Origin: Victivallales bacterium
GTDB lineage: Bacteria; Verrucomicrobiota; Lentisphaeria; Oligosphaerales; Oligosphaeraceae
DNA: 51,376 nt
Assembly: GCA_017535315.1 (NCBI GenBank)
Contig: JAFXUD010000006.1
Location: 1 to 51,376, forward strand
Direction of reading: 5' to 3'
This document shows positions 10,761 through 44,374 of this stretch, one piece after another. The stretch's first letter is position 1, and every line of letters starts with the position of its first letter. Below the pieces are notes generated by a model. The model had not been told where the DNA came from, ran no database searches, and saw only the letters and a list, made by a program, of their open reading frames with translations. Made by a program: the position numbers and the translations under genes.

Positions 10761-10918
10761 ATGCTATTTATTATCTTTTTTAGATTTGAAAAAGTGAAAT
10801 CTCGATATTATATTTGGGGTGGTTGGGTGGGGGTGGACCACCCTATGTGAGTTGGATGACGCGTGGTCAACCAAAAAACGGGAATTATACATTTGAGTCG
10901 CCTGAATATACTCTCTGT

Positions 10919-11170
10919 TAGGTTCTCTAGGGTTAGTCCTCAAGGTCTGCTAGGGAGTAAGTCTTCTAGGGTAAGTCCGCTAGGTCCTCTAGGGTAAGTC
11001 CGCTAGGTTTTCTAGGTCTGCTAGGGAGTAAGTTTTCTAGGGTAAGTCCGCTAGGTCCTCTAGGTCTGCTAGGGAGTAAGTTTTCTAGGAGGTAAGTCTT
11101 CTAGGTTGTTTTGGTCTTTTGTCAGCATCGGCAATGTCTGCACGTCATCGTTGTGGTAAGTCTTCTAGGT
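10919..11170. repeat. CTAGG-rich irregular tandem array
   Basis: About 15 CTAGG cores occur in 250 bases, spaced mostly by 9, 14 or 16 bases, with recurrent blocks such as ctagggtaagtccg and ctagggagtaagtttt. It lies between divergent dprA and the GH39-like gene. The rest of this 650-bp gap holds a G-rich stretch (about 10812-10844) and the two promoters. A smaller CTAG cluster occurs at 27968-28010. Confidence 0.85.
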
Positions 11171-20186: not shown

Positions 20187-20245
20187 GAGGTAATTTCAAA
20201 ACTATCATGTCAACGCGCAAATCGCGCTAGTTTTGAAATTACCTC
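20187..20245. repeat. 18-bp perfect inverted repeat with SD-like arm
   Basis: GAGGTAATTTCAAAACTA (20187-20204) and its exact complement (20228-20245) flank a 23-base loop that has its own CGCG/CGCG mini-stem. The right arm begins 26 bases before the ATPase start. The left arm carries GGAGGT, which would pair with ACCTC of the right arm in RNA. A 24-base exact match to the right half (as complement) is at 43662-43685, and 15 bases match at 33735-33749. It may be an end of a mobile element or a regulatory hairpin. Confidence 0.85.
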
Positions 20246-20253
20246 TTGAGAAA

Positions 20254-21840
20254 ATGGAAATGAAGACACTTCAACCGATTGCCATAGATACAAATTCTTT
20301 TCCCGAGCTGCGGAGGAAAGAGTGTGTTTACGTGGATAAGACGGGCTATTTTCACAGGCTGATTACCCGTCTTGACGCAAGTCGTTTTTTTCTTGCGCGT
20401 CCTCGTCGCTTTGGCAAATCGCTGATGATCAGCACGTTGCAGGCAATCTTCGAGGGCAGGCGCGAACTATTCGACGGGCTCGACATCTCGCGGACGGACT
20501 GGAAGTGGGAGAAGTACCCCGTGCTCTACTTTAACATGGGTTTTGTTGCTTCAAACGCAGTGGACAGGTTTATTCAGAAATTCCCGTGTTATATCAAGGA
20601 AGTGATTGAAGGTGTTGAGATTACATATAATGACCAACAGCCGCCTGACATGAACTTTGGGCTCGCCATCGAGAAACTAAGCAAATTCAGTGACGGCAAG
20701 GGCCTGGTCATTCTCATCGACGAGTACGACGACCCTGTAGCGCAGTTGCTTGCAAAGCCCGACGAGGCTGAGAAAGTGCGCGAATGCCTTGCGGACTTCT
20801 ATCGCCAGATGAAGGATCGTGCGGAGAAGATCCGCTTCCTGATGATCACGGGCGTGTCGAAGTTCACGAAGATGTCGGTCTTTTCCGCCCTCTCGAACCT
20901 AGTGGATCTCTCGTTTGAGGACGAATGCGCGACGATGCTCGGCTACACGGAGGAGGAGCTGGACAGGTATTTTGGCGAGCACATGCGTTCCCACGCGCAG
21001 AAAATGGGGCTTTCGGAGGAGGCTTACCGCGCGGAGCTCAAGCGTTGGTTCAACGGATACCGCTTTGGAAAGTTCAACAAGGAGACTGTTTACAACCCTG
21101 TGTCGATAGGCGTGAACCTCTCCCAGCAGAAGCCTGTTTTCAGCTCCTATTGGTCTTCGACAGGCAAGGCTTCCATGCTGATGAACTTCCTCAAGAGGCA
21201 GGAGTTCCTGGGTGTCGATATGGACAGAGTGCAGAACGTGCGCGAGCGTGACTTCGATGTGTCGGACAACCGTGCCCTGCGGACGGTGCCCATGCTTTTC
21301 CAGACGGGCTACCTGACCATCAAGGACTATGACCCATGTCGCCAGAGCTATACCTTGGGTGTGCCCGATGTCGAGGTGCGGCAGGATTTAGCCACGCTGA
21401 CAACATCCGTTATTGCAAATCAGGACAGCACCTGGGTTTCCCAGCTTTCCGACAAGCTGCTTGACGCGGACTGGGATGCTTTTTTCACAGGGCTCAAGTC
21501 CCTCTATGCGGCGATGCCCTACGGGCCGACGGAGGGGAACATCCAGGAGTATTCCTTTGAGCGGGTGTTGCTGACGTTGCTGTGGTCGCAGGCCATTGAG
21601 TGCCGTACGGAGGAGCGTCAGGCGAACGGCCAGGCGGACATTGTCGCCGAGCACCCCTGCGGCATCACCATCTTTGAGCTGAAGGTGAACGAACCCGTGG
21701 AGGCCGCGCTGGAGCAGGTGCGGCGGAAGGGCTACGATGCACCCTACCGCGCCAAGGGGGTGCCTGTCTGGCTGGTCGGCCTCAGCTTCGACCGCCAGAC
21801 GCGCCAGTTGCTCGATGCCAAGGCCGAGAAGGTGGTTTGA
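20254..21840 (+). CDS. AAA-ATPase-like / PD-(D/E)XK nuclease-superfamily protein
   Basis: The protein has about 528 aa. The N-terminus shows the family signature: E-L-R-x-x-x-x-V-Y-V-D-K-T, then P-R-R-F-G-K-S-L (Walker A-like P-loop, about residues 48-55) and L-V-I-L-I-D-E-Y-D-D-P (Walker B-like). The C-terminus has a degenerate nuclease core: E-Y-S-F-E, then G-Q-A-D-I-V and I-T-I-F-E-L-K-V. This AAA-ATPase-like plus DUF1703 family is present in many copies in gut Bacteroidota and PVC bacteria; function is unknown (defence or mobile roles proposed). The start is uncertain: ATG at 20254 or 20260; neither has a good Shine-Dalgarno, and a TTG at 20233 lies inside the inverted repeat arm. It sits between two propeller paralogues, which suggests insertion. 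Confidence 0.85.
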   Translation: MEMKTLQPIAIDTNSFPELRRKECVYVDKTGYFHRLITRLDASRFFLARPRRFGKSLMISTLQAIFEGRRELFDGLDISRTDWKWEKYPVLYFNMGFVASNAVDRFIQKFPCYIKEVIEGVEITYNDQQPPDMNFGLAIEKLSKFSDGKGLVILIDEYDDPVAQLLAKPDEAEKVRECLADFYRQMKDRAEKIRFLMITGVSKFTKMSVFSALSNLVDLSFEDECATMLGYTEEELDRYFGEHMRSHAQKMGLSEEAYRAELKRWFNGYRFGKFNKETVYNPVSIGVNLSQQKPVFSSYWSSTGKASMLMNFLKRQEFLGVDMDRVQNVRERDFDVSDNRALRTVPMLFQTGYLTIKDYDPCRQSYTLGVPDVEVRQDLATLTTSVIANQDSTWVSQLSDKLLDADWDAFFTGLKSLYAAMPYGPTEGNIQEYSFERVLLTLLWSQAIECRTEERQANGQADIVAEHPCGITIFELKVNEPVEAALEQVRRKGYDAPYRAKGVPVWLVGLSFDRQTRQLLDAKAEKVV

Positions 21841-28048: not shown

Positions 28049-29098
28049 ATGAACCGAATTGACTATCTCATACGCAGATTGCTTCTGGTGATTCCAACCT
28101 TCATTGGCATCACCTTTCTGTGTTTCTGCGTCATTCAGTTTGTGCCTGGTGGTCCTGTGGAGCAGGCGATGCTTCGCATGAAAGGCGGTGGTGCGGGTGG
28201 TGAATCGACAGGAACTGCAACGGAGGGGGCGGAGGCCATCTCCCCCGAGCAGCGGGAGGCTATCCGTCGCTACTATGGATTTGACAAGCCTTTTCTGCAA
28301 CGCTATGCCCATTGGCTGTGGAAAGACCGCATTGGCATGGCGATGGATTCCTACAAGTACCCAAACAAGACTGCCTGGCAACTCATCAGCGAGCGCTTCC
28401 CCGTCTCCCTGATATTCGGTTTGACGGGGTTTCTGCTCACCTATCTTGTCTGCATTCCCCTGGGGCTGGTGAAGGCGCTCAAACATGGCAGCGCCTTTGA
28501 TCTTTTCTCAAGTGCCATTGTCTTCATCGGCTACTCCATTCCCGCATTTGCGTTGGGGATGGTTTTGAAGATGGCCTTCTGCGGAACGGTCGAGCAGTTG
28601 TGGGACGTATTGCCTGCGACGGGCGTTCATTCCATGAACTACGACACATTGTCCGCCTGGGGGAAGGTAGTTGATACCGCGACCCACATGTTTCTGCCTG
28701 TGCTTTGCTATATGGTGGGCAGTTTTGCCGTGCTAACGATGCTGATGAAAAACAGCATTCTGGAGCAGATCAACAGTGATTATGTGCGGACAGTCTATGC
28801 AAAGGGAGCGGGTACCGCGCGTGTTTTAGTGGTGCATGTCCTTCGCAACGCGCTTATCCCTGTGGCGACTGGTTTTGGCGGTGTGCTGACGCTGATATTC
28901 GCGGGCTCTGTCATTATTGAAAGCGTCTTTGAAATCCCTGGCATGGGGACGCTCAGCCTGGAGGCGATTGTGGGCAGGGACTACCCTGTCTTCATGGGCG
29001 TACTCTCCCTCACGGCTATCCTTGGCCTCCTTGGCAACATCCTCTCCGATTTTGCCTATATCACCATCGACCCCAGAATCTCTTTCGGGAGGAATTGA
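28049..29098 (+). CDS. YejB/DppB-like ABC transporter permease (orphan)
   Basis: The protein has 349 aa from the ATG at 28049 (a TTG at 28043 is also in frame). It has about six membrane segments: R-R-L-L-L-V-I-P-T-F-I-G-I at the N-terminus and P-R-I-S-F at the C-terminus are typical of the YejB branch. The EAA loop is Y-V-R-T-V-Y-A-K-G-A-G, then R-N-A-L-I-P. It should form the inner-membrane channel for peptides together with a second permease. But neither a binding protein (A), a second permease (E/C) nor ATPases lie nearby; the next gene is convergent 31 bp later. No Shine-Dalgarno precedes the start, which is replaced by heptamer repeats. It may be a remnant of a broken operon or be complemented elsewhere. 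Confidence 0.85.
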   Translation: MNRIDYLIRRLLLVIPTFIGITFLCFCVIQFVPGGPVEQAMLRMKGGGAGGESTGTATEGAEAISPEQREAIRRYYGFDKPFLQRYAHWLWKDRIGMAMDSYKYPNKTAWQLISERFPVSLIFGLTGFLLTYLVCIPLGLVKALKHGSAFDLFSSAIVFIGYSIPAFALGMVLKMAFCGTVEQLWDVLPATGVHSMNYDTLSAWGKVVDTATHMFLPVLCYMVGSFAVLTMLMKNSILEQINSDYVRTVYAKGAGTARVLVVHVLRNALIPVATGFGGVLTLIFAGSVIIESVFEIPGMGTLSLEAIVGRDYPVFMGVLSLTAILGLLGNILSDFAYITIDPRISFGRN

Positions 29099-29129
29099 TC
29101 TTGATAGCGCATGGCAAGAAGGGGATGAA

Positions 29130-32100
29130 TCATGGTTCAATCTCGAGGGAATAAATGAGCAAGGCACCTTGGGGGAGATGAACGAGGTATGTTCCTACTG
29201 CGTCGGTCTGGCCGCTGACGGGGATGCGAACCTGCTGGCGCCCCGAGGCCGTGAGGGTGGCCATGCCGACTTGGCGCTCATTGAACAGGAGACGTACTGT
29301 GTCCCCTGCCTTTGCATCCAAATCTACCACAGCCGCCTTGCCCAAGAAGACCTTGTTGAACGAGAAGCTTGCGCCAGGGGCAATCCAGCCTGCGAAGGCC
29401 CCATTGTCGGCGGCCGAGGCACCCTTAATGCGGTCGGCATCCTGCACCGTCAGCTTGCGTCCAGTGCGCTTCTGTGCCTCGGCTTTGTCATTAGCCACAC
29501 CAGGTTCGACAAAGGTCTTGATTCTGGCTAGGGTTCTGTGCAAGGTTTCTGCCTCAGCCTGTGGCACGCGATTCAGCAGCAGCGCTGTCTCGAATGGAGC
29601 AAGCGCAATTTCGCTGCCATCCGTGAAGGGCGTGATTCCTGCGGCGGAGACCAAAATGCTCCCTACCTCCACCTCTTTGGGGCTGAAGTGCTGAGGGGAA
29701 TCGACGGTGTTCGCAAACAGGGTGAAAATCGCCTGGTCAGAGAGCCTGCGCCAGCGGCCCTGCTGCACGACTGGGGTGGAAATCGGCTTGTCGCCTCCGC
29801 CAGAACCGCCTTTGTAAGCGTTCCACACCGTGGCGATGTGGGGCATTGGAGTGGCGTACTCGACATTTTTCAGCATCTGCCCCGTGTTGAAAACGCTTAA
29901 CAGCGCGTTGCGCAGATGCGCGTTCCGTTTGATTTGAAGCGCAGCAGCTGGGTTTTGGATGTCGCTCAAATTGAAGTATCCCAGTTGCTCGCCGCGCACC
30001 AGCTGTTCGCCGAGCTTGGCGTAAAGCGCCTTGATGTCGCACTTTGGGCCTGTGTCGCCATAGAGGCGATTGCCCAATTGGATGGCGCCTCCGCCATAGA
30101 CTGCATCGACCAAGGGAATCTGCTCATGGGTCCAGCGCCAGCAGAAGGCATGGTCGAATTCGCGCAGATATGGCTCGGCAAAATCTTCGCTGGAATGGGT
30201 CAAATCAGGATAGCGAAGCTTCAATTTGCGGCGCATTCTTTTCAGCATCGGATAATAGCCGTCGCGCACCCACGTTTGTGCATCGCCGAGGTCATGCCCA
30301 TGTTCGGGATTGTAGCAGAGGTGCGGCGAGGCGGCCATCACCTGGTCGTGGTAAATGCCCGTGACGCCATAGCCCGCCACCCGTTCGCACAGCCAGAGTA
30401 TCCACTCTTGCCATCCCGCTGCCGCAGGGCACTGTACGGCGTAACGGTGGCGCTCGCTGTACCAGCCGCGTTTGCCAGGGCCAGGCTCATGGAACCAGAT
30501 GGTATAGCTCTCAAACGGTATGTTGTTTTCTGCCGTGCGGACTGCATAATGCTCACCCAATGGGGAATACATCCAAGAGGAGCGGCGGTCTGGACCGTCG
30601 TTTTCCGCCCACAGACGGGTATCGATGTAAACCTCGCAATGAATGTCGTTTTTCTTGAGTTCGGGAATCACCTCCAGAGCGGAATCCTTTGCGAAGAAAT
30701 GCGGCCAAGAGCCTTTGGAGATGTCATCCCACCAGGTCCAGTGAATCAAGTAGGGCAGCTCCAGATAGTTGCGGAAGACAATGGCGTCTTGGAGCATCTT
30801 GTCTGGTGTATATTCATAGCGGCTCAGCATAATGATGGAGACGCAGTTGTCCCGCAGCCATTGCGGCGTGTCCTGGCGCGGCAGTTCCGTGATGCCCCAG
30901 GCGGATTTCTGCTGTACAAAACGGCGGTAAATCTGCGCTGCCTCATACCAGTTTCCCTGGAAAATCTCCACGGCGGCGATGCCGCTCAACGTGTAGCTGT
31001 TGCCGCCAGAACCGTCAATCGGCTGCCCGACAGAGGTGGTGTATGCCGCATCCAGGTCGCCACGTTTCCCCATGGTTGTGACACGCTTGACGGCGCCCGA
31101 CGGGTCCTCGTGGGCGAAGTAGATGCCGCTTTTCGCATCATAATAGGCGTGGAACTGCATATTCACATCACTGGTCGGATACCAGTAATCCTGCTGGGCG
31201 ATCGTAGAGGCCGCCACGGTGGGGTTGTCAAGCTCCACGCCCGACATGAATGGAATGACCAACTTGTCCGTTCCGCTGTCGAGCTTTCGGAAACTGAAGC
31301 GTGGGAAGGTCACCGCTTCTAGGATGGTGTTGCTGTTGTTGTTTATGACCTTCAGGCCTGCCTCCAGGCGCGCCCCTATGAGTTTTATCGGCATTTCGAC
31401 ACACAGGCCATCTCCGCACTCCCAGACGAGAATCGCGGAGCCGTTGGCCTGCTCTTGCACCTTGGCTTCAAATGCGCTTTCCTGCAGGTATTCATTGACC
31501 TTGCTCTTGCGAAGCCTCAGCTCCCATCCGAGGGAACGCCGACCGAAAATCTCCCGTTGTGCGTGCTTGTCATAGAGGGAGATGAGCGGAAACACCGTAT
31601 TGCCGCCACGGACGATGAACATCGCCTCCAATTGTTCGGTGGAAAGCAGGCGGATGGCATCTTGTTTTTGCCCATGCGAGAGCATTTCCGCCGCCTTGCC
31701 TAGAAGCGACTGGTCAGCCCCTGCGCGGCCAGCCCTTTCCAAAGCCGCCCTTTGATGGGGCGGCAGGTCCTGCAATGCCTTGATGAACAGAGCGGTCAAC
31801 TCTGCTTTGATAGTGCCTGAGGTTTTGACTTTCCCGCAGGCGATGGCATCCTGTTCCACCTCGTCGTCGCTCCAGGCGCGTTTTTCGATGGTGAACTCTG
31901 CCGCTTCTCCAACCATTGCCCAGGCGTCTTTGGCTAGTCCATAGCCGAAAACAACTGGCTCGTCGCTTTTCAGCGGTTCAACATCTAGAACCTGCGCCTG
32001 CCCGACCTGCTCGCCGTTGATGAAAACTTTCTGCAGATAGCCTGTCTCTCCCTGGCCCTGCCTCTGAATGCGGCTGAATACGGCGGCATAATGCGCCCAT

Positions 32101-32510
32101 TCCCCAGCAGGGATGACTCTGCCAGAGCGGATTCCACCATGGAACTTTTTGCCGTCGCCTGAATGGCTGAGGTAGAGGGTTCCGTTACCATGGCGTGAGA
32201 AAAGCCATTCGTGCCCCTTGCTGAAAATATCTTCACCGAGGTCGTGTCCCTGCGGCTTTGGCGCAAAGCGCAGGACGGCGGTCATGGTCAGGCCTGCTGG
32301 CGTGATGTGAAATTGGGCGCTGTTTGGCAAAACTGCCTGACCAGGGCCGTTGAAGACCAGCAGTCCGTCTTTGACGGAGGCGTTACCTGAGAGAGCCAGG
32401 CCTGGATTGCCCTGGTCAAAGCGGTATGACGCCTTGGCGGTATCGGCGCCTTGAGCAACTTGGACAAAATAAACTAGCGCGGCCAGTGTTATTGCAAAGA
32501 TTGTTTTCAT
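29130..32510 (-). CDS. Secreted LamG plus DUF6259-like TIM-barrel protein
   Basis: The protein has 1126 aa. The signal peptide is M-K-T-I-F-A-I-T-L-A-A-L-V-Y-F-V-Q-V-A-Q-G. A LamG/concanavalin-like domain (about 25-230) is followed by a beta-sandwich (about 280-520) and a large TIM-barrel (about 550-900) with L-I-H-W-T-W-W-D-D, G-I-Y-H-D-Q-V, H-S-S-E-D-F-A-E-P and W-R-W-T-H-E. The acidic residues in the D-Q and S-E-D motifs are candidate catalytic residues. This matches DUF6259-type glycoside-hydrolase-like proteins of PVC bacteria. A C-terminal beta region (about 930-1126) closes it. It is periplasmic or exported and probably acts on a complex glycan. It follows the LamG gene by 10 bp on the same strand. 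Confidence 0.72.
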   Translation of the reverse strand: MKTIFAITLAALVYFVQVAQGADTAKASYRFDQGNPGLALSGNASVKDGLLVFNGPGQAVLPNSAQFHITPAGLTMTAVLRFAPKPQGHDLGEDIFSKGHEWLFSRHGNGTLYLSHSGDGKKFHGGIRSGRVIPAGEWAHYAAVFSRIQRQGQGETGYLQKVFINGEQVGQAQVLDVEPLKSDEPVVFGYGLAKDAWAMVGEAAEFTIEKRAWSDDEVEQDAIACGKVKTSGTIKAELTALFIKALQDLPPHQRAALERAGRAGADQSLLGKAAEMLSHGQKQDAIRLLSTEQLEAMFIVRGGNTVFPLISLYDKHAQREIFGRRSLGWELRLRKSKVNEYLQESAFEAKVQEQANGSAILVWECGDGLCVEMPIKLIGARLEAGLKVINNNSNTILEAVTFPRFSFRKLDSGTDKLVIPFMSGVELDNPTVAASTIAQQDYWYPTSDVNMQFHAYYDAKSGIYFAHEDPSGAVKRVTTMGKRGDLDAAYTTSVGQPIDGSGGNSYTLSGIAAVEIFQGNWYEAAQIYRRFVQQKSAWGITELPRQDTPQWLRDNCVSIIMLSRYEYTPDKMLQDAIVFRNYLELPYLIHWTWWDDISKGSWPHFFAKDSALEVIPELKKNDIHCEVYIDTRLWAENDGPDRRSSWMYSPLGEHYAVRTAENNIPFESYTIWFHEPGPGKRGWYSERHRYAVQCPAAAGWQEWILWLCERVAGYGVTGIYHDQVMAASPHLCYNPEHGHDLGDAQTWVRDGYYPMLKRMRRKLKLRYPDLTHSSEDFAEPYLREFDHAFCWRWTHEQIPLVDAVYGGGAIQLGNRLYGDTGPKCDIKALYAKLGEQLVRGEQLGYFNLSDIQNPAAALQIKRNAHLRNALLSVFNTGQMLKNVEYATPMPHIATVWNAYKGGSGGGDKPISTPVVQQGRWRRLSDQAIFTLFANTVDSPQHFSPKEVEVGSILVSAAGITPFTDGSEIALAPFETALLLNRVPQAEAETLHRTLARIKTFVEPGVANDKAEAQKRTGRKLTVQDADRIKGASAADNGAFAGWIAPGASFSFNKVFLGKAAVVDLDAKAGDTVRLLFNERQVGMATLTASGRQQVRIPVSGQTDAVGTYLVHLPQGALLIYSLEIEP

Positions 32511-32520
32511 GTCTATAGTC

Positions 32521-33201
32521 CTAAAACTTAGTCACCACATCATCGGAAAGGGGTTCTGCATAAATCGCCACTTGGCGGACATCGCCGCCGAAGAGCCATT
32601 GCTTGCCCCAGCCTATGAAGAGCCGCAGGGGATTGTCGGTGGCAATGTATTTACCTTTGCTTTCGCCTTTGGCGACCTCCTTGCCATCGATGAAGAGCTT
32701 GTAAGTGTACTGCTCTTCAGCTGCCTTGGCAAGCACGACGGCTAGTTTGACAAATTGTCCGACGGGCGGCTGCGGAGCGTTTATGCGCAGAGCCCAGTCG
32801 CCGTTCAGCGCGAGATTGAAATAAAGTCCCTTCTGGGAACGGCCCAGCAGAAACTCCTTGTCCTTGAAGATGATCATGTCATAGAGTTTGTTGTCCTTGT
32901 CATCGACAGGCTGGTTGAATCTGACCTCGGCGAAGAGTGTCAGCCCTGCGTCACCGTGGAGAGCACGGGCGTCGGGGAGTTCCAGATAGGTTCGCCTCTT
33001 CAAACCTGCCGCCCAGGAGCCGTCGTCTAGCACACGGATCAACGGTGTTTTCCCCAGCAGCCATTGCGGGGCGACGGCGTATTGCCCCTTCATACCAATC
33101 TCTTTGCCTGAAAACGTATATGCCAGTGCGGGCTCTGCCGCGTTAGCTTGCCACAGCGCTGCAAGCAGCGTGGCGATGGTCAATGCTATTGCTTGTTTCA
33201 T
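32521..33201 (-). CDS. Secreted LamG/concanavalin-like domain protein
   Basis: The protein has 226 aa. The start at 33201 (M-K-Q-A-I-A-L-T-I-A-T-L-L-A-A-L-W-Q-A-N-A) is preceded by GGAGAA; an in-frame codon upstream (33267) would add a non-signal extension. The remaining chain is a single LamG-like jelly roll: L-T-L-F-A-E-V-R-F, L-L-G-R-S-Q-K-G-L-Y-F-N-L and Y-K-L-F-I-D-G-K-E-V-A-K-G, then L-F-I-G-W-G. It resembles the N-terminal part of the downstream 1126-aa protein. It probably binds a glycan as an accessory to that enzyme. Cotranscribed (10-bp gap). Confidence 0.75.
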   Translation of the reverse strand: MKQAIALTIATLLAALWQANAAEPALAYTFSGKEIGMKGQYAVAPQWLLGKTPLIRVLDDGSWAAGLKRRTYLELPDARALHGDAGLTLFAEVRFNQPVDDKDNKLYDMIIFKDKEFLLGRSQKGLYFNLALNGDWALRINAPQPPVGQFVKLAVVLAKAAEEQYTYKLFIDGKEVAKGESKGKYIATDNPLRLFIGWGKQWLFGGDVRQVAIYAEPLSDDVVTKF

Positions 33202-33225
33202 TGGACATTCTCCTTTTTTTAGCAT

Positions 33226-33253
33226 AAAATACACGAAAATGAGGTTTTTACAA
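33226..33253 (-). promoter_or_regulatory. Possible promoter for the LamG operon
   Basis: On the minus strand TTGTAA (33248-33253), 16 bases, TATTTT (33226-33231). The -10 is only a fair match. It overlaps the gap next to the DUF1016 remnant. Confidence 0.4.
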
Positions 33254-33261
33254 GACCTGAT

Positions 33262-33810
33262 TTGCACGATAACGAGGTTTCCTCACGAAATCTTAAGTAT
33301 ATGAGGCTATTCGCGAGTGTTTGGACTGATGTTGAAATTGTGCAAGCACCACTTGGACAATTGACGTGGTATCACCACCTCACCTTACTGGACAAACTGG
33401 ATACCAAGGAACAGCGTCTGGCTTATGCACGATTAGCGGCGGTGAACGGCTGGTCACGCAATGTAATGGTTCATCACATCGAACTGAAGACCGCGGAGCG
33501 CGTCGGTAAGGCGCAGACAAATTTCCAGGCGACGCTCCCCGCCTCAGACTCCGATTTGGCGCAGCAGACACTGAAGGACCCGTATAAACTGGAGTTTCTT
33601 GGACTGACGGAGGGCGTCAAAGAGAACAAACTGCGTCAGGCATTGGTGGACAGAGTGGCTGATTTTCTGTTGGAACTCGGAACAGGCTTTGCATTCGTCG
33701 GCAAAAAGGTTCCACTGGAGGCTGGGGGTGATCCTTTTGAAATTACCTCATATAATTTTGGGAAAAACGCCCGCAAAGCTAGAATTTTGCCCCTACCAAC
33801 TTGCAATTAG
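33262..33810 (+). pseudogene. DUF1016 (YhcG-type) PD-(D/E)XK nuclease remnant
   Basis: About 155 codons match the middle of DUF1016 nucleases: S-S-R-N-L-K-Y-M-R-L-F-A, L-T-W-Y-H-H-L-T-L-L-D-K-L, A-V-N-G-W-S-R-N-V-M-V-H-H-I, L-P-A-S-D-S-D-L-A-Q-Q-T-L-K-D-P-Y-K, and F-L-L-E-L-G-T-G-F-A-F-V-G-K-K-V-P-L-E-A-G-G-D-P-F. The N-terminal DUF1016_N domain (about 150 aa) is missing. The match stops just before the catalytic F-x-I-D-L-L-F-Y-H strand. At that point (33735-33749) lies a 15-base copy of the inverted repeat found at 20231-20245, so a repeat-mediated event probably broke the gene. The last codons also carry the SPFH-operon promoter. Intact members act in DNA cleavage or defence. Confidence 0.82.
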
Positions 33811-43626: not shown

Positions 43627-43660
43627 AAGAGGAAGCGGTGCCTTGTGTCTTTTTGTCACT

Positions 43661-43695
43661 TGAGGTAATTTCAAAACTAGCGCGAAATTAGCTCA
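43661..43695. repeat. Inverted repeat sharing 24 bases with the 20187 element
   Basis: TGAGGTAATTTC (43661-43672) and GAAATTAGCTCA (43684-43695) form an imperfect hairpin with one mismatch; the loop is aaaactagcgc. Bases 43662-43685 are an exact complement match of 20222-20245. The right arm contains the stop codon of the M50-like gene (43688-43690). It lies between convergent genes and could serve as a bidirectional terminator or be an element end. Confidence 0.8.
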
Positions 43696-44374
43696 CTTTT
43701 AAAAAAGCGGAAGCGATGGCCTTTAGTGCATCGAGCTGAAGGGAAAGGAGCCGCATAAAAGCGCGGGCTGCCTCTTTCCACTGCGAGGTGGTGATAAGCA
43801 TGGCGAGCAACAGGAAAAGAGTATTTCCAGAAAGGATAAATGCATAGGAAAGCACTTTGCCGTAAACCTCCACATCGGTCTGGTTGTTTCGCAATGCGTA
43901 GATATTCAGCATGATATGATAGGCGTATGTCAGTCCTAGCAGAGCGGAAACCAGATGGACTGTCCAGATGGGGGATGGAAACACAAACAGTTGACTAAGG
44001 CCGAATGCACCGACAACCACCATTAGATAGAAGGGGATGATATAGGGTGCAAGGGTGATGGCGATGTTGGGGTTGTAAATTTCTGTGGAGCCACTGAGGC
44101 GATGGATGCGGATATGCCCTGTTTTCTTGAAGAAGAGTTTGGCTGTTACCCAGTGTGTTAACTCATGACCGAAGACATATATGGATGGAAAGTGCTTGTA
44201 GTGGAAGAAAATAGCCGACAATACAAAGACGGTAATTCCCGTCAGGATGGCTTTGTTTTTCAGAAAGAGGGAAGGTTGGAAGGCGAGAAGGGTCGTTGCC
44301 AGCAGCATCATGGCCAGCCAAAACAGAAAAAGAATGGCCATACCGTGTTTGCAAGCTTTGAGTATTTTCCCCAT
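43688..44374 (-). CDS. M50-like integral-membrane metalloprotease
   Basis: The protein has 228 aa and about five or six membrane segments. H70-E-L-T-H74 (V-F-G-H-E-L-T-H-W-V) is the zinc motif of site-2-type proteases, placed in a membrane helix after S-I-Y. The second conserved region is less clear: N-P-N-I-A-I-T-L-A-P (about 103-112) resembles the usual post-motif helix but lacks a plain L-D-G. It is therefore probably a divergent M50 or DUF3267-like member. It starts 5 bp after recR stops, so it is cotranscribed with dnaX and recR. Its stop lies inside the 43661-43695 hairpin. Substrate unknown. Confidence 0.65.
   Translation of the reverse strand: MGKILKACKHGMAILFLFWLAMMLLATTLLAFQPSLFLKNKAILTGITVFVLSAIFFHYKHFPSIYVFGHELTHWVTAKLFFKKTGHIRIHRLSGSTEIYNPNIAITLAPYIIPFYLMVVVGAFGLSQLFVFPSPIWTVHLVSALLGLTYAYHIMLNIYALRNNQTDVEVYGKVLSYAFILSGNTLFLLLAMLITTSQWKEAARAFMRLLSLQLDALKAIASAFLKVS

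Follow-up and report, generated by a model that had tools for sequence, protein, structure and literature searches.

A fragment of a DUF1016/YhcG nuclease gene meets a single end of a miniature inverted-repeat element in a Victivallales genome

TIMEs and mobile insertion cassettes are non-autonomous elements whose inverted ends are able to bracket host genes. The locus described here also has a likeness in MITEAba12, one of the bacterial miniature inverted-repeat elements, which has target duplications in 40% of its copies and one copy fused to the 3' end of a gene, truncating that gene (PMC6382973). Our elements resemble MITEAba12 in being short and non-coding and in having terminal inverted repeats and target duplications of a fixed length (here in 31 of 70 pairs). 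They differ from it in that the duplications are 4 bp rather than 9 bp long, the ends are different, several inner sequences are found with the same ends, no parental insertion sequence came to light, and what adjoins the DUF1016 gene is a single end, by its inner side. The gene at this locus belongs to the DUF1016/YhcG family, for which an E-D-ExK motif is given (PMC1189080). It is like the YhcG/DUF1016 PD-(D/E)XK nucleases in that the surviving fragment is 59% identical to the nearest intact genes, and unlike them it has no N-terminal part, no catalytic D and no ExK residues.

The window, by which we mean the whole stretch of 51,376 nucleotides that was analyzed (contig JAFXUD010000006.1 of assembly GCA_017535315.1, from a Victivallales bacterium), contains the following features.

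20187..20245, no strand: complete 59-bp member of the element family, its two 15-base arms perfect and inverted to each other; no exact 4-bp duplication
29109..33758, no strand: block of a DUF6259/lectin gene, a lectin gene, the DUF1016 fragment and the arm, with no counterpart at this place in the congener G001
33241..33255, plus strand: possible degenerate left arm GAGGTTTTTACAAGA, 11 of 15 bases, facing the right arm; uncertain
33256..33744, plus strand: probable DUF1016/YhcG pseudogene fragment, delimited from Pfam, 24 relatives and an alignment with 6 intact proteins
33735..33749, plus strand: arm TTTTGAAATTACCTC, the right-hand end of the miniature element family, with no close partner
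43662..43694, no strand: short 33-bp member, with one perfect and one degenerate arm

The preliminary description of this DNA had reported a match of 15 bases between 33735-33749 and 20231-20245. This match is real, and TTTTGAAATTACCTC occurs four times in the window, the two remaining sites being 20187-20201 and 43662-43676, both on the minus strand. The view that such a match would hardly arise by chance is also borne out by the counts: with up to two mismatches the window has 4 matches against 0.08 expected, a number reached in no shuffle, and the proposed search for all copies of the arm gave 229 arms with at most one mismatch (104 of them exact) in the whole source genome of 4.9 Mb, compared to 0 in the reversed control. 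Exact copies number 36 in the congener G001 and 23 in the congener G002, and 7 of the 40 genomes searched, the source genome included, have any. In G012, which represents another genus of the same family, the 16-base form gave 125 matches when one mismatch was allowed, and nearly all places listed there read GAGGTAATTGCAAAAC. The end sequence of the element family can be written as GAGGTAATT(T/G)CAAAA. The G012 elements (L147-L156), with their GAGGTAATTGCAAAAC ends, form a sibling family in another genus.

Arm copies were compared from 60 fetched stretches of the source genome, leaving out the listed places C66:721 and C74:2851. In the commonest layout two arms face each other as GAGGTAATTTCAAAA...TTTTGAAATTACCTC, that is, GAGG...CCTC. 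The facing pairs that were measured span 22-191 bp, and by size there are a long class of about 154 bp, whose inside is conserved, a middle class (about 112 bp) and short palindromes (22-59 bp). Among 70 pairs, 56 from the source genome and 14 from G002 and G012, 31 are flanked by an exact 4-bp target duplication (the L155 pair, which has no comparable right flank, is scored as a miss), whereas 200 shuffles gave a mean of 1.4 and a maximum of 5. Duplications of 2 and 3 bp are not clearly in excess (8 and 4 pairs versus 7.4 and 2.3), 5-bp duplications were seen in 3 pairs versus 0.1, and lengths of 6-10 bp in none. The 191-bp elements of G012 have exact 4-bp duplications in 5 of the 6 cases measured, and in the window the element at 43662-43694 is flanked by a duplicated ACTT (43658-43661 and 43695-43698) and is missing from the aligned place in G001. 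The family consists of miniature inverted-repeat elements (MITEs) with a 4-bp target duplication, and its facing 15-bp ends, 4-bp target duplications and more than 200 arms show that it transposes or has transposed. The facing pairs and their duplications likewise establish the arm as a genuine end of a dispersed inverted-repeat element. Several different inner sequences carry identical ends, and the ends are common to at least two genera in which the inner sequences differ.

None of the arm pairs is long enough to encode a transposase. No parental insertion sequence or transposase with the ends of this family was found near 14 transposase-domain loci, for which PF01609 loci were taken from G000, G001, G002, G012 and G024, and PF13586 and PF00665 loci from the first four of these genomes; an arm pair flanked 0 of the 14. 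One locus (L159) has a single arm, but an inverted repeat of its own that is different. C113 of G012 was considered as a long element and rejected, as its arms are parts of two separate short elements. Searches of the open PMC literature turned up no account of the element family. Directly after the 59-bp element in the window starts an AAA-ATPase_like/PDDEXK_9 gene (element and gene together 20187-21840), the first listed start codon of which (20233) lies inside the right arm of the element.

The open reading frame at 33262-33810 matches Pfam YhcG_C (positions 1-61 of 157) and DUF1016_N (positions 64-137 of 137), and its homology to YhcG/DUF1016 proteins (PF06250, PF17761) extends over up to 163 residues. 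The N-terminal part is missing, and so is the C-terminal half with the catalytic residues. At the 5' side, homology starts at 33250-33280 in those of the 24 relatives that cover the start, a break that was absent from the preliminary description. At the 3' side, 10 of the 24 align up to query residue 168, encoded by ATT at 33742-33744. The closest intact gene among the 59 genomes searched is L086 in G011, with 59% identity over query residues 14-168; scanning genome contigs for a closer intact DUF1016 gene gave two relatives, at 59% and 52%, and neither the plasmid nor the phage records yielded one at 60% or more. The source genome has no second DUF1016 copy at E<=0.01, and no 3' half of the gene was found beyond the arm, the matches of the intact relatives (E below 0.01) all ending before 33800. 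Six intact proteins that were aligned keep the run GGDxFxIDLLFYH...ELK with small changes, and the window protein reads GGDPFEI followed by unrelated sequence in which the D of IDLL and the ELK are missing. Because the window departs from the conserved run after GGDPFEI, the E-D-ExK motif is incomplete in the fragment. A functional nuclease of this type would have DUF1016_N together with a PD-(D/E)XK domain carrying the catalytic D and ExK, a combination not found here, and judging from its sequence the fragment is probably a non-functional relic rather than an active nuclease.

The gene and the arm share bases. Homology had been thought to stop at GGDPF, but the alignment runs through FEI to 33744 in those 10 relatives. 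The first ten bases of the arm lie in the DUF1016 frame, coding for F-E-I, and 10 of the 15 matching bases are DUF1016-homologous; only ACCTC (33745-33749) lies beyond the homology. Hence the statement that the gene is broken exactly at the arm stands insofar as DUF1016 does break there, with loss of the catalytic D and ExK, and needs amending for the ten arm bases within the homologous frame. Intact genes have a codon for D and then one for L after the place of FEI. The same bases in frame in an intact gene would have spoken against a break at the arm, and this objection holds in part: L086 does encode FEI (TTC GAA ATC) at this place, but continues with GAC CTT instead of ACCTC. Since most relatives have F or Y, not E, as the middle residue, gene and arm may in truth share 4 bases instead of 10. 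The arm has its inner side towards the DUF1016 fragment, and the gene abuts this inner (TTTTGAAATT) end, not the outer GAGG/CCTC end. No facing arm was found within 420 bp of 33735-33749, and in place of a complete member, with two arms and a duplication, the site presents an element end only.

The proposed alignment of the junction with an intact gene could be made with L086 (59%) and others, but not with the sister genome G001, which lacks the whole block. There the ABC permease gene (window 28199-29108) adjoins the Band_7 gene (window 33910 on), and the intergenic sequence is homologous from window 33759 on. The right edge of the missing block (29109-33758) is within about 9 bp of the outer end of the arm, and no arm was found at its left edge. 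G001 was rejected as an empty site for the DUF1016 junction, since with all 4.65 kb missing the junction is unreadable. In G002 the ABC permease gene was not found in the stretch examined beside the Band_7 gene.

Lone arms occur elsewhere in the genome. A partner was sought within 420 bp for 133 arms, which were located in the window and L009-L068 with no more than one mismatch, and 25 of the 133 had none. These 25 single arms keep at most 4 bp of inner sequence in 16 cases, 5-20 bp in 7 and more in 2; bare arms of the source genome are found, for example, in L014 at 11850, L027 at 3491, L060 at 3573 and L064 at 3563. Several partnerless arms lie directly at the stop codons of genes, and a prepilin-like protein is encoded near the arm in L064. 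Because the genes inspected beside other single arms mostly appear complete, as judged by reading their translations, DUF1016 would seem to be an atypical case among the single arms. The family is dense and has an unusual number of bare ends, which makes the genus usable for studying how elements are trimmed.

We give roughly even odds to the reading that illegitimate recombination fused a decayed YhcG-type PD-(D/E)XK nuclease gene with an end of a miniature element resident in the genome. An element would once have been located downstream of the DUF1016 gene; illegitimate recombination, by deletion or otherwise, would then have joined the TTTTGAAATT-like FEI codons to the same bases in the right end of the element, removing the catalytic half of the gene plus the remainder of the element; what is left of DUF1016 would be a non-functional relic. 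Consistent with this, FEI is present in the closest intact relative and IDLLFYH...ELK is lost just after it, the 25 partnerless arms among 133 indicate that loss of one arm is not rare, and the resumption of G001 homology about 9 bp outside the arm, with the block missing, fits a rearrangement point at the junction. Against it count that the ancestral arrangement of intact gene and complete element was not found, that the bases shared by gene and arm may be 4 and not 10, that in 16 of the 25 single arms the break comes no more than 4 bp from the 15-mer, which random deletions do not predict, and that the difference between G001 and G000 is a 4.65-kb block without polarity. Recombination at the shared stretch is favored by the inner-side orientation, which at the same time contradicts the idea that the element entered an intact DUF1016 gene and broke it there. 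The break does coincide with an element end, but a gene broken by simple insertion abuts the outer (GAGG/CCTC) end of the element, and here it is the inner side of the arm that meets the gene; simple insertion therefore cannot have made the junction and is ruled out. The 3' half that should follow the arm is not found (E below 0.01), the 5' side of the gene shows a break as well, and we regard this origin as extremely improbable. The link of the repeat to gene disruption made in the preliminary description remains plausible, with insertion as the direct cause not supported. The observation in that description was largely right, and its interpretation is plausible but needs correction: the gene itself shares part of the match and has a break at either end, and simple insertion is incompatible with the orientation.

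The break might also have nothing to do with the element, TTTTGAAATT being native DUF1016 coding sequence and ACCTC coming from GACCTN by loss of one base or by chance. The L086 sequence TTC GAA ATC GAC CTT lends itself to this, the arm being a synonymous version of it minus one base and with the wobble base of CTT changed. However, exact agreement of all 15 bases would be needed together with a gene break at their end, while unrelated matches with up to two mismatches are expected only 0.08 times per window, and we hold such a coincidence to be unlikely. It is similarly doubtful that 15-bp arms arise or move by a one-ended process of their own and that one of them landed in or beside an already broken DUF1016 gene. 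In its favor, those 16 of the 25 single arms resemble the long element no further than 4 bp from the 15-mer, and bare arms are present in other intergenic regions beside apparently complete genes; but a one-ended insertion has no demonstrated mechanism or empty site, the sole bare arm compared with congeners (L026 at 12017) is in a region too diverged to show a junction, and the in-frame FEI overlap is left unexplained. The fragment could instead have been captured, a piece of DUF1016 between facing arms making up a 509-bp non-autonomous element, the distance from arm 33241 to arm 33749, in the manner of the TIMEs and mobile insertion cassettes. The site at 33241 sits where the DUF1016 homology starts, and the arms 33241-33255 and 33735-33749, taken to their outer edges, enclose the homologous stretch 33256-33744. 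Sites as good as 33241 that are not arms number 15 and 40 in about 1.06 million with two weight matrices (1.4e-5 to 3.8e-5 per oriented position), giving a chance of about 0.001-0.002, for a boundary chosen after the fact, of finding one within 30 bp. Yet this best distant partner matches at 11 of 15 positions only, though the right end is perfect, the would-be duplication AAAT/ATAT agrees at only 3 of 4, and the fragment has no second copy in the genome; compared to TIMEs and mobile insertion cassettes the left end is weak and the cargo is a broken gene fragment in single copy. Moreover, among the 25 single arms, partners this good within 1.5 kb (full arms of other elements excluded) number 2, the window's own and one at L023, against about 1.4 expected. 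Capture at this locus is therefore improbable in our estimate, and gene capture as a general habit was rejected, as partners up to 1.5 kb from single arms are not above chance. We would put at quite long odds the broader idea that, in the way of the Pack-type elements of plants, the miniature elements in this genus pick up pieces of host genes between their 15-bp ends (at this site a piece of a DUF1016 nuclease gene), with chance end-like matches inside a gene serving as the substitute end; if true, it would provide a small bacterial counterpart of the gene-carrying elements known from plants.

Apart from its unusual number of loose ends, the locus is a case of ordinary genome decay, in which a decayed gene meets the end of a common small mobile element. 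On the preferred reading, illegitimate recombination at the shared bases, it illustrates one route by which small mobile elements may become entangled with gene decay, a YhcG-type gene being cut to a fragment at an element end. In L018 at 3493, L022 at 11005 and L031 at 2545 the sequence next to the inner side of the arm is similar, GGGAATTATATA(C/T)TT, and may be part of a further repeat. L026 carries, at about 10767-10962, another dispersed repeat of a different kind; it is about 200 bp long and has dozens of matches in G001 and G002.
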